Shown piece after piece: positions 30,179 through 34,991 of a stretch of 64,000 nt of DNA. The stretch spans positions 372,001 through 436,000 of the forward strand of contig CP030887.1 in the NCBI GenBank assembly GCA_006969905.1, given 5' to 3'. The notes under the pieces were generated by a model, which saw nothing but the letters and a program-made list of their open reading frames with translations, made no database searches and was not told the origin of the DNA. The stretch is from Balneolaceae bacterium. Its GTDB lineage: Bacteria; Bacteroidota; Rhodothermia; Balneolales; Balneolaceae. The first letter of the stretch is position 1; the number at the start of each line of letters is the position of its first letter. Position numbers and translations under genes: made by a program.

Positions 30179-30312
30179 GTTTGTTTAAGGTATTTTTAAA
30201 TAAGTACTTGAATATGTATTTTCCCTCTTTCTGTGCCCAAAAAGAAGCGCTTTCATAAAAAATTTCTGCAAGAGTGTTGCTCCTTAAAATTCTTCGCCGT
30301 AAGATTTACCCA

Positions 30313-30390
30313 ATGAAATTAACACGCCAAAATATCGTCCTCAGAAACATGTGTTGTATGTGTATGTGCACTACAAACTCTGGGGACTGA
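30313..30390 (+). CDS. Met/Cys-rich leader peptide of the metY operon
   Basis: A 25-codon frame opens at ATG 30313 and stops with TGA at 30388-30390. Codons 13-19 read MCCMCMC, giving four Cys and three Met codons in seven. The tail TTNSGD leads directly into the stop. The codons that overlap the antiterminator arm (TCT GGG GAC T) lie at the end of the frame. Such a run of the regulated amino acids just before an antiterminator/terminator pair is the classic sign of ribosome-mediated transcription attenuation. The peptide itself is expected to have no function. No strong Shine-Dalgarno sequence is visible, which is usual here. Confidence 0.8.
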   Translation: MKLTRQNIVLRNMCCMCMCTTNSGD

Positions 30391-30426
30391 TTACGTAAAG
30401 AATTTATTTTCGAAAGTCCTTTAGAG
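30378..30426 (+). promoter_or_regulatory. Antiterminator of the leader-peptide attenuator
   Basis: CTCTGGGGACT (30378-30388), at the end of the leader frame, can pair with AGTCCTTTAGAG (30415-30426), which is also the 5' arm of the terminator that follows. Eleven pairs form, with two G-T pairs and one bulge. A ribosome that reaches the stop codon covers the first arm and lets the terminator form. A ribosome stalled at the Met/Cys codons leaves it free. Confidence 0.75.
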
Positions 30427-30450
30427 TGTATGATCTGAAGGACTTTTTTT
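30413..30450 (+). terminator. Terminator of the leader-peptide attenuator
   Basis: AAAGTCCTTTAGA (30413-30425) pairs with TCTGAAGGACTTT (30434-30446), a 13-bp stem with one G-T pair and an eight-base loop. A run of seven T spans 30444-30450. It lies 23 bases after the leader stop codon and is upstream of the riboswitch. Confidence 0.88.
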
Positions 30451-30489
30451 ATGGCTATTGATTTCATTCGTTCTTTTACATCATGCATT

Positions 30490-32020
<1,531 letters not shown>

Positions 32021-32029
32021 GGTTTAATT

Positions 32030-32578
32030 ATGAGCAACTCAAAAGCAACATACCTTAGTACGCCCAACCAAATTAATAAAGCAGTCGGGCGAGTTGTCAA
32101 TGCCATCAATAAAGATGAATCTAATGCTTATGCCACTTTTACTTCCAGCTCTGAGCTGAGTGATGGGCTATTTGCAAAAATCCATAGCAGGGAGTTTGAG
32201 TACTTCGCCGATGAGCCCGCAAATCTTGGAGGGAATAACAACGCCCCTACACCCGTAGAGTTACTTCTTGGTTCGCTGTGTGCCTGCCAGGAAATTGTAA
32301 TCAAAGCCTATGCTGCTGCCCTGAATATTTCTTTGAAGAAAGTACGGGTTGAAGCAAAAGGGGAGCTAGACCTTCGTGGATTTTTAAATATTAATGATGA
32401 TGTTCGTCCCGGTTTCCATACCGTCAGTTTTAAAACAGTAATAGATACTGACGAAACTGATCAGGAAAAGCTTCAACAGTTAACCGCTTTTGCTGAGGAA
32501 CAGTGCCCGGTTCTGGATATCATTGAGAACCCGGTTAATGTTAAAGGATTAATCACATTTGAAAATTCGAGTAACTAA
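32030..32578 (+). CDS. OsmC/Ohr-family protein
   Basis: The 182-residue protein has the OsmC fold with both redox cysteines: LLLGSLCACQEIVIKAYAAA (first site) and AEEQCPVLDIIENPV (second site). NAPTPVELLLG is the standard entry helix. Family members reduce organic hydroperoxides or act in thiol chemistry. It lies 9 bases after metY and 43 before metX, inside the methionine operon. A role in handling sulfur intermediates or oxidised thiols fits the context but is inference. Confidence 0.9.
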   Translation: MSNSKATYLSTPNQINKAVGRVVNAINKDESNAYATFTSSSELSDGLFAKIHSREFEYFADEPANLGGNNNAPTPVELLLGSLCACQEIVIKAYAAALNISLKKVRVEAKGELDLRGFLNINDDVRPGFHTVSFKTVIDTDETDQEKLQQLTAFAEEQCPVLDIIENPVNVKGLITFENSSN

Positions 32579-32621: not shown

Positions 32622-33665
32622 ATGAGTAATTTTTCCTTACATACTTCCAAAAGAGCATTCATTACTGAAACAGGTTATCGCTTTGATGAAGCAGAGTTTG
32701 CTTACCATACATGGGGAAAGTTGAATACAAATAAAGACAATGTTGTACTTATCTGCCATGCACTAACAGGGAATTCTGATGCAGAAGATTGGTTCTCCGG
32801 ATTATTCCATGAAAACTCTTTTATCGATCTGAACAAGCATTTTGTGGTCTGTATCAATAACCTGGGAAGCTGCTATGGCTCAACCGGGCCATGGTCAATA
32901 AATCCTGCAACAGGAAACCCTTACCGGGCTGATTTTCCCAACATCACTATTCGAGACCTGGCTTGCTATCATCAGCACTTTCTGGATGATTTCGGGATTA
33001 ATGGAATTGAACTGGTAATCGGAGGATCTATGGGAGGTATGATTGCCTTAGAACTGGCCATTCTTGATCAAAGAATTAAATCTCTTTGCCTCATGGCTAT
33101 GGGAAAATCCCATTCTCCCTGGGCAATAGGTATCAGTCATGCTCAGCGAATGGCTATTTATGCTGATAAAAACTGGAAGGATGGCTGGTATGAAAAAGAT
33201 ACACCTCCTGCAAAAGGCCTGGCTGCTGCCCGGTCTTTAGCTATGATCACCTATCGAACTGCTGAAAACTATCGGCAAAAATTTGATCGCGACTTTAATA
33301 AAGAAAATGAAATCTTTGAAGTAGAGTCTTACCTCACTTACCAGGGAGAAAAGCTAGTTTCCAGGTTTGATGCACTTTCTTACATCCGCCTCACAGAAGC
33401 TATGGATACTCATGATATAGCAAGAAATCGTTTTTCGGCAGAGCAGGTTTTATCCTCTCTTAACATTCCAGTGCTGGTTATTGGGATTGAATCTGATCTC
33501 CTCTACCCTACTGATGAACAAAAAGAACTGGCAGCCTTAATCCCAAATGCTATATATAAGGAGATTAATTCTCCCTACGGCCATGATGCCTTCCTGATTG
33601 AGTTTGAACAGATTAATGAATGCCTTAAACCCTTCTTTAAATCTCACAAAATTTATACTACTTAA
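32622..33665 (+). CDS. metX: Homoserine O-acetyltransferase
   Basis: The 347-residue alpha/beta hydrolase-fold enzyme transfers an acetyl group from acetyl-CoA to homoserine and makes the substrate of MetY. The nucleophile is in VIGGSMGGMIALE, the N-terminal signature is ICHALTGNSDAEDWFSG, and INNLGSCYGSTGPWSINPAT is diagnostic. The Asp is in GIESDLLYPTDEQ and the His in SPYGHDAFLIE. Whether acetyl or succinyl is used cannot be certain from sequence, but pairing with metY supports acetyl. It is the last gene of the operon and is convergent with the KAP gene. Confidence 0.95.
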   Translation: MSNFSLHTSKRAFITETGYRFDEAEFAYHTWGKLNTNKDNVVLICHALTGNSDAEDWFSGLFHENSFIDLNKHFVVCINNLGSCYGSTGPWSINPATGNPYRADFPNITIRDLACYHQHFLDDFGINGIELVIGGSMGGMIALELAILDQRIKSLCLMAMGKSHSPWAIGISHAQRMAIYADKNWKDGWYEKDTPPAKGLAAARSLAMITYRTAENYRQKFDRDFNKENEIFEVESYLTYQGEKLVSRFDALSYIRLTEAMDTHDIARNRFSAEQVLSSLNIPVLVIGIESDLLYPTDEQKELAALIPNAIYKEINSPYGHDAFLIEFEQINECLKPFFKSHKIYTT

Positions 33666-33677
33666 TCTCAAATAAGC

Positions 33678-34991
33678 TTAACCTCTGGTTAAAGAGAACT
33701 CTTCAATTACTTCAGTTATATATTTAAAATCTTTTTCTGTCCAATCACTTAGAAGCTTTAATATCTCTAATTCAATAGCTGGTTTGGTTGGTTTTGAGTT
33801 TATCTCTTTTATGATTTTTTGCTCCAAGCGACCTCTTTTAGATAGAATGCAAGCTTTTATCCAACCTAAAACACTTGGTTCTATATTGATAATCCCTTCT
33901 AACCCCAACTCTTTAAAGACTAAGTTAGGATCTGCTTCTCCAAAGGCGTATTCCATGTATAGCTTTTTATTAATATGTCTTAGCGTAAGAAGTATTGAGA
34001 TGTAAAAGGAAAAATGGAAACTGAGTTTATCTCTTTTTAAAACACATAAAATATTTACAGTACCTATGATTTGATCAATATCTCTTGCTGTTAGCTTAGT
34101 AGCTTTGGAGAGCTCATACATTATATTAATAATGTCATTATATAACTCAACACCATCTCTTGTAAGGCCTTTATTATTATTTTTAAGATTCTCATCAAAC
34201 CCTGAAACCCTCATACGATTATCTATATAGTCTTTTGATATTGCTGAATCCAAATAGAAAAAAAAGTCAACAAATCTTTTTAAGTAATGCTCCGAATCAA
34301 ATTTACTTCCATAAACTGATTTAATTGATTCAAAAAGTTGGAATTGATCAATAGCAAGTACAAAAATAAAACCTTCGAGATCGAAGAAGTGTTTAATACG
34401 TTCTAAAAACTCAAGTGCATAATCTGGTCGACTTCTATCAAGCTCATCAACAAAAATTACAATCTTAGAACCTCTTGCTTTACTTGAAGCTTCCTTAAGG
34501 TGATCCTTTAAAATACTCATACTTTCTGTTTCGCTTTTGTATTCTTGGATTCGATCCTCCAAAATATTCCTTGTTAACTCAGAAAATGCTTTAGCAATGT
34601 TTTCAGTTTTGATCAATCCACCTACAGCAATATCTATTGTAGCAGGAACTACAAGCTTGGAAAATTTCAAAAAAGTTGATTTTATACTTTTAAATGATTC
34701 TTCTTCTATGATGGCTTTCAATTCAGATATTAAAACAATCATAGGATCAGTTTTATAATCAGATTCCCATACATTTATATAAATACTGTCAATATTCTCC
34801 TGAATACTATCCTGAAGCATCTTAATAAAAACTGTTTTTCCAGCACCCCATTTTGCATCTACAGCGATAACATAAGGTCCTGGAGCACCCTCTATTATTT
34901 TTTGAAGTGTTTGTAGTTTTGTCCCCCGACGTAGTTGATCTTTAGCTTCTTTATATAATCCGTCTTCAAAACCGCTCGTTGTTCTTTTCAT
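33678..34991 (-). CDS. KAP-family P-loop NTPase
   Basis: The 437-residue protein has Walker A at residues about 46-53 (DAKWGAGKTVFIK). INVWESDYKTDPMIVLISEL is the typical KAP segment, and Walker B is VIFVDELDRSRPDYALEFLE. The sensor region is FVLAIDQFQLFESIKSVYG. KAP NTPases occur in bacteria and animals; several bacterial ones take part in phage defence, often with partner effector genes. Clear membrane helices of the type inserted in many KAP proteins are not seen, apart from one weak stretch (LVVPATIDIAVGGLI). The gene is strongly AT-rich, stands alone and opposes its neighbours, which suggests acquisition by transfer. Confidence 0.85.
   Translation of the reverse strand: MKRTTSGFEDGLYKEAKDQLRRGTKLQTLQKIIEGAPGPYVIAVDAKWGAGKTVFIKMLQDSIQENIDSIYINVWESDYKTDPMIVLISELKAIIEEESFKSIKSTFLKFSKLVVPATIDIAVGGLIKTENIAKAFSELTRNILEDRIQEYKSETESMSILKDHLKEASSKARGSKIVIFVDELDRSRPDYALEFLERIKHFFDLEGFIFVLAIDQFQLFESIKSVYGSKFDSEHYLKRFVDFFFYLDSAISKDYIDNRMRVSGFDENLKNNNKGLTRDGVELYNDIINIMYELSKATKLTARDIDQIIGTVNILCVLKRDKLSFHFSFYISILLTLRHINKKLYMEYAFGEADPNLVFKELGLEGIINIEPSVLGWIKACILSKRGRLEQKIIKEINSKPTKPAIELEILKLLSDWTEKDFKYITEVIEEFSLTRG

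Follow-up and report, generated by a model that had tools for sequence, protein, structure and literature searches.

A predicted cysteine/methionine leader-peptide attenuator in series with a SAM-I riboswitch upstream of metY in Balneolales

The metY gene of a Balneolaceae bacterium very probably lies behind two gates in series, a ribosome-mediated attenuator with cysteine and methionine control codons and then a SAM-I riboswitch, which together would control an apparent metY-osmC-metX operon. This reading draws on sequence comparison and folding models of the window, by which we mean the whole 64,000-nucleotide stretch analyzed here, and of its relatives. If it is correct, a leader-peptide attenuator that is conserved across an order and apparently re-used elsewhere works in series with a metabolite riboswitch of the same pathway, and one sulfur-amino-acid gene answers to two successive nutrient sensors. 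The elements of the window are as follows.

30277-30307, plus strand: putative promoter TTGCTC-N17-TAAGATTT, whose -7 box ends 5 nt before the leader ATG.
30313-30390, plus strand: leader peptide open reading frame (ORF), ATG to TGA, 25 codons, with control codons M-C-C-M-C-M-C at 30349-30369.
30337-30345, plus strand: segment 1 (GTCCTCAGA), which can pair with segment 2 and lies immediately 5′ of the control codons.
30378-30388, plus strand: segment 2, the antiterminator arm (CTCTGGGGACT), which overlaps the leader stop codon.
30413-30450, plus strand: terminator T1, with segment 3 at 30413-30425, a loop, segment 4 at 30434-30446, and a T-run to 30450.
30470-30480, plus strand: boxA-like element GTTCTTTTACA, lying after T1 and before the riboswitch.
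30488-30620, plus strand: SAM-I riboswitch aptamer (RF00162), a full-length covariance-model match of 67.8 bits (gathering score 44.4).
30642-30680, plus strand: terminator T2, listed at 30642-30673 by a generic terminator scan and probably serving the SAM-I riboswitch as its expression platform.
30701-32020, plus strand: metY, O-acetylhomoserine/O-acetylserine sulfhydrylase family (TIGR01326, 682.5 bits, cutoff 495.1).
32030-32578, plus strand: OsmC-like protein (NF041052, 81.4 bits, under its cutoff of 95), same apparent operon.
32622-33665, plus strand: metX, homoserine O-acetyltransferase (NF001209, 364 bits, cutoff 331), same apparent operon.

The original prediction placed a Met/Cys attenuator before metY. 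The attenuator is indeed upstream of metY, but the SAM-I leader intervenes and is fed first; the riboswitch, T2, and the boxA-like element were all absent from that prediction. The leader itself reads as had been described, a 25-codon frame with the MCCMCMC stretch (translation, MKLTRQNIVLRNMCCMCMCTTNSGD) that ends on the arm overlapping its stop codon (30388-30390). An in-frame GTG at 30274 extends the open frame upstream, but the start kept across relatives is the ATG at 30313. Segment 1 is complementary to TCTGGGGAC (30379-30387), within segment 2. The predicted intrinsic terminator also holds; the 13 bp of its stem include the A-T pairs formed with the first T's of the T-run. The sequence thus contains each of the four segments that make up a classical attenuator (pairings 1:2, 2:3, and 3:4). 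RNA from 30313 to 30450 folds with a z score of -5.07, and none of 200 shuffles was equally stable. A generic terminator scan of the window listed T2 but not T1, and no Rfam family matched 30313-30450 up to E = 5. The pattern TGYATGTGYATG occurs once on the forward strand and nowhere on the reverse strand of the 3.49-Mb genome, compared to 1 and 3 occurrences of a reversed-pattern control.

In the trp, his, and ilv attenuators, a short ORF with control codons is followed by segments that pair as 1:2, 2:3, and 3:4 and by an intrinsic terminator. The metY leader shares this layout, and its sequence and modeled structure have the testable hallmarks of trp-type attenuation. It differs in its mixture of Cys and Met codons, its apparently near-leaderless ORF, and the SAM-I riboswitch in series.

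From this layout we infer the following scheme. Transcription would begin on the leader ATG or no more than a few bases from it. When Cys and Met are plentiful, the ribosome would complete the leader and cover segment 2, allowing T1 to form and stopping transcription; in the window, an untranslated leader would fold as 1:2 and should terminate too. When charged tRNA-Cys or tRNA-Met is short, a ribosome stalled at the first Met-Cys codons would cover segment 1, so that segment 2 would be free to join segment 3, and RNA polymerase would pass T1. The attenuator would read tRNA-Cys charging and probably tRNA-Met charging as well. Terminators of the SAM-I family are passed only at low SAM, and a polymerase that had passed T1 would meet the riboswitch and pass T2 only in that condition. 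Aminoacyl-tRNA supply would be read first and SAM second, and both would have to be low for full read-through (AND logic). The arrangement makes testable how the cell combines these two signals to set sulfur entry through MetY.

Both kinds of control codon would suit the operon, since enzymes of the MetY family make homocysteine and can make cysteine; the NCBIfam label of TIGR01326 is O-acetylhomoserine aminocarboxypropyltransferase/cysteine synthase. No cysteine synthase above the TIGR01136 cutoff was found in the window's genome. The best candidate (L350) is nearest to the cysteate synthase and cystathionine beta-synthase models and falls under both cutoffs. Cysteine may be made from homocysteine in this organism, a route that would fit the absence of a cysteine synthase at the TIGR01136 level. 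Next to the operon, on the minus strand (33678-34991), lies a gene for a predicted 437-amino-acid protein that we take, from its sequence, to be a KAP-type P-loop NTPase-like protein.

To follow the leader across relatives, we read metY loci and SAM-I sites. A MetY-like match (E ≤ 0.001) was present in 58 of 58 relatives searched, some with paralogues only. All 30 metY loci that we read carry SAM-I and, on the same strand, a Cys/Met-rich frame ending 89-144 nt 5′ of the aptamer. SAM-I was matched in 211 of 244 genomes of the class, and the 138 distinct sites that we read are a sample among the matches listed. Ninety-eight of them lie in the window's order, comprising 80 metY-type sites (10 in which a CoA-binding-protein gene comes first), 17 metH-type sites, and one other (L103). 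A fixed rule required at least five Cys plus Met, including at least two Cys, in 10 codons, and a frame end 60-200 nt upstream. With this rule, 67 of the 80 sampled metY-type sites in the order passed. None of the 17 metH-type sites and none of the 40 sites outside the order did so, and among 4100 dinucleotide shuffles the rate was 0.3%. Lowering the threshold to four admitted two further metY-type sites, which are weaker evidence because five of the 40 outside-order sites also pass, against 3.6% of shuffles built from the order's metY-type and unclassified sites. Inspection revealed eight more Cys or Cys/Met leaders (L033, L095, L105, L113, L121, L129, L141, and L146). The total is 77 of the 80 metY-type SAM-I sites; three (L048, L055, and L136) have no leader. 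As metH-type and outside-order sites fail the rule, the leader is not a feature of every SAM-I riboswitch, and the metH sites without a leader provide a natural control within the same genomes.

Within the last 18 residues, at least two Cys were present in 76 of the 77 leaders and at least one Met also in 76, and Met is almost always close to Cys. Since in short leaders the start codon may be among the Met counted, Cys appears to be the surer control signal and Met the less certain one. The order and number of Cys and Met differ between species, as they would for control codons, and this variation bears on whether the nascent Cys/Met-rich peptide could itself be the sensor, arresting the ribosome in response to a metal, a thiol, or redox state instead of codon supply. 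MCMC or CCMC spacing could bind soft metals on general chemical grounds. Nevertheless, given the variable order and the fact that the other genes preceded by such leaders look like sulfur genes, we consider a peptide sensor unlikely, with only a small share of the probability.

To examine the pairing of the arms, we took from each member the segment around the leader stop, the T1 5′ arm, and the region before the stop. T1 was called cleanly at 68 of the 80 metY-type sites, and these 68 members were used. The script's T1 was wrong or oversized in L033, L043, and L141, which were dropped from the pairing, ribosome-mask, and promoter analyses; in L019 the hairpin is visible but was not called. 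At five sites (L095, L105, L113, L129, and L146; genus g24, family f4), a terminator after the leader was not found. Permutations used one member from each of 25 genera, a design in which relatedness partly remains. The mean 2:3 energy was -15.5 kcal/mol for a member's own partners and -11.9 kcal/mol for swapped ones, and the mean 1:2 energy was -16.0 compared to -13.6 kcal/mol; in each case, 0 of 1000 permutations was as good. The 2:3 result also held when all 68 members were permuted. Segments 1 and 3, paired as a control, showed no such preference (696 of 1000 permutations as good). Thus, the pairing of segment 2 with the T1 5′ arm and with segment 1 is species-specific, and the proposed pairing of the 30378-30388 arm with the terminator is borne out by the advantage of own over swapped partners.

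Co-variation also speaks to the idea that the leader encodes a small trans-acting protein and that the hairpins merely end its transcript. The peptide is conserved, as this idea would have it, but it is highly variable outside the MC stretch, and co-variation of the arms around the stop with the terminator would be needless for a peptide acting in trans. We regard this explanation as highly improbable. Ribosome-mediated attenuation, as originally proposed, instead draws support from both lines of evidence. The check suggested for it was whether related Balneolota keep the frame and both helices; the frame is kept at 77 of 80 sites, and the 1:2 and 2:3 helices co-vary between genera.

We modeled the switch by folding each transcript as far as segment 3, with the bases under a ribosome masked, and taking the probability of the 2:3 pairing, P(2:3), as antitermination. 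Across the 68 members, the median P(2:3) was 0.93 for a ribosome placed on the first Cys codon, 0.54 for none, and 0.0 for one at the stop. The first-Cys value exceeded both other states in 65 of 68 members and was at least 0.5 in 66. For the window, P(2:3) was 0.89 at the first Cys, 0.03 with no ribosome, and 0.00 at the leader end. The original prediction had a stall freeing the antiterminator and completion masking it, and the folding model behaves in this way, although the zero at the leader end arises by construction, because the chosen mask position covers segment 2. Moving the mask to the last Cys codon left 56 of 68 members with a P(2:3) of 0.5 or more but gave 0.00 in the window, because there segment 1 is then left free; in the window, early stalls alone would work. 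This result and the absence of T1 from the generic terminator scan count slightly against the reading. With no ribosome, 37 of 68 members had a P(2:3) of at least 0.5. The untranslated default thus appears to vary by species, and folding alone does not assure basal termination everywhere.

A generic sigma-70 scan listed no promoter at the leader. However, in 58 of the 77 leaders an in-frame start follows 2-7 nt after the end of a TTG-N17/18-TAnn(TTTG) motif, compared to 4.2% with shuffled upstream DNA, and the 16S gene has a similar motif ahead of it (TTGACA..TATCTTTG). Because of this spacing, the leader mRNA looks leaderless or nearly so. Mycobacterial Cys short ORFs are reportedly leaderless, according to the title of Canestrari et al. 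2020.

The position of promoters also helps to weigh a simpler account, in which T1 is the 3′ terminator of era, the MC-rich frame is due to chance, and metY is under SAM-I alone from its own promoter. In the window, era lies directly upstream of the leader, and SAM-I has a terminator of its own in T2. Yet an Era motif was upstream in just 10 of 30 loci (in three of them the upstream sequence was too short for a decision), while the leader was present in all 30. Since the leader persists next to differing upstream genes, T1 is not simply the terminator of era, and we rejected that assignment. Under a loose rule, a promoter-like match lay within 40 nt of the aptamer at 17 of 17 metH-type sites, which have no leader, but at only 19 of 68 metY-type sites, a layout that disfavors SAM-I being driven solely by an adjacent promoter of its own. 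Together with the co-varying arms, these data make the account based on era very unlikely. The 19 loose matches do leave a weak promoter between T1 and SAM-I as a candidate. At the three leader-less metY sites, a promoter-like match lies 55-65 nt upstream of the aptamer. The second SAM-I of the window's genome (L031; G000:C1:2891848-2891964), which precedes a MetH homocysteine-methyltransferase module, has a promoter-like match adjoining the aptamer and no leader peptide.

With a simple scan, a terminator followed the SAM-I aptamer at 53 of the 80 metY-type sites. The core of the boxA-like element, GTTCTTT, lies 14-25 nt 5′ of SAM-I at 74 of the 80 metY-type sites, compared to 0 of 17 metH-type sites and five of 40 sites outside the order, and is retained at the three leader-less metY sites. 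GTTCTTT is common to the 16S-23S spacer of the single rrn operon (GTTCTTTGACA; GTTCTTTGACATGGTGAAG), and the rrn leader carries GTTCTCTGACA (GTTCTCTGACATAGTTGAAAG), which resembles the boxA-like element; we take these rrn sequences to be boxA, the NusB/NusE site. An 11-base degenerate version of the pattern matched the genome 37 times, compared to 18 for its reversed control. Because related sequences are common in the genome, the meaning of the element, and any role that it may have, rest on its position and conservation. Among 25 additional, best-scoring SAM-I loci read elsewhere in the phylum (L325-L349, mostly one family; L338 is incomplete and uninformative), 22 also have GTTCTTT, here 20-27 nt 5′ of the riboswitch, and a general boxA-SAM-I pairing is possible. 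By eye, the start of the leader ORF in L113 and L146 can pair with sequence adjoining the boxA-like element (in L146, TTTAAATCACG with CGTGATTTAAA), which suggests another coupling of leader translation to read-through.

Similar leaders precede other genes in the order. The CMCMC codon pattern gave 28 matches in 25 of 126 order genomes: 16 are metY-type leaders, four lie before other genes and have a terminator, and eight are unrelated. The four are as follows.

L177 and L180: leader and terminator before a rhodanese/mercaptopyruvate-sulfurtransferase-like gene (L180 under the family cutoff).
L192: leader and terminator before a SUMT gene (TIGR01469, 314.9 against a cutoff of 185), followed by a frame that, from its sequence, is presumably cysH-like.
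L198: leader and terminator before a DASS-type anion transporter gene, partial and under the family cutoff.

A leader and terminator also precede five of five close rhodanese orthologues (76-84% identity) and four of 12 SUMT loci, where the Cys/Met attenuator unit occurs without SAM-I. Leaders with their own terminator at rhodanese-like, SUMT, or anion-transporter genes were seen in L177, L180, L192/L203, L198, L210, L212, L213, and L215-L219. A sulfur-assimilation attenuator regulon in Balneolales is therefore a possibility, one that would be visible in relatives alone, because in the window's genome SUMT had no match at all and rhodanese a weak one (29% identity), with no close copy of either. 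Such a regulon is predicted here in a lineage with none described in the literature searched.

Among described Cys attenuators with a terminator, the nearest in the literature searched is uORFC-8-2, upstream of cysS in Rhodobacterales, where two conserved Cys codons in an upstream ORF are followed by an intrinsic terminator and ribosome-mediated attenuation has been proposed (PMC8632094). It resembles the metY leader in all of these respects but belongs to Alphaproteobacteria and precedes cysS, and the accessible part of that source mentions neither Met codons nor a riboswitch (PMC8632094). The original prediction mentioned polycysteine leaders in actinobacteria, and the mycobacterial ones do precede cys operons, with Cys runs near the stop and no conserved terminator hairpin (PMC1262725). 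These are also Cys-rich short ORFs before sulfur genes, but the metY leader mixes Cys and Met and has a terminator and an antiterminator, and we rejected its assignment to the mycobacterial type (PMC1262725). Compared to the SAM-I (S-box) family, RF00162, the downstream element is an ordinary full-length match with a terminator; what differs is a second, predicted translation-dependent attenuator upstream of the riboswitch. Two signals are combined in one leader in Salmonella mgtCBR, which has tandem leader ORFs, mgtM and mgtP (PMC3641672), and in Bacillus clausii metE, which has SAM-I and AdoCbl riboswitches in tandem (PMC2258182). The former uses two ORFs and the latter two riboswitches, whereas the metY leader would combine a leader-peptide attenuator with a riboswitch, the two reading linked metabolites. 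Closer in phylogeny, clues for leader-peptide attenuation have been described for Flavobacterium amino-acid operons (PMC9723704) and short ORFs reminiscent of leader peptides for Bacteroides (PMC7366714); the available passages of neither source name Cys leaders, and those of PMC2965389 contain nothing on a Cys/Met leader element. In the literature searched, mostly without subscription journals, we found no Cys/Met leader joined to a SAM riboswitch and none in this lineage.

Finally, among 80 named metY relatives, the 900 nt upstream contain a Cys/Met-rich frame in 32, a count made with no shuffle control and including a Nostoc match (L265) that looks like chance. SAM-I was present in 18 of the 20 scanned among these 32; L292 and L299 have none above the gathering score. 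In L292 (Melioribacter sp.), a Met/Cys-rich leader and a hairpin with a T-run lie directly before metY. Thirteen Bacteroidia loci (L257, L267, L268, L276, L281, L287, L289, L293, L302, L306, L313, L314, and L316) have the reverse order, with SAM-I first and then a Cys-rich leader, the end of which lies 120-160 nt from metY; by eye, no hairpin with a T-run was evident in 12 of them (all but L293). A broader reading, which we hold tentatively and at somewhat less than an even chance, is that a two-gate metY leader, with charged tRNA-Cys/Met read by a leaderless or near-leaderless attenuator and SAM by a riboswitch on one transcript, exists in several Bacteroidota-related lineages with the sensors in differing order, that in Balneolales a NusB/E boxA between the gates modifies the polymerase once it is past the first gate, and that the attenuator alone has been recruited as a sulfur-assimilation regulon. 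Five loci have the same order as the window, with leader and terminator preceding SAM-I: L271, titled Ignavibacteria, and L285, L297, L311, and L323, titled Bacteroidetes bacterium or bacterium. Leaders of this kind thus also occur outside the window's lineage.
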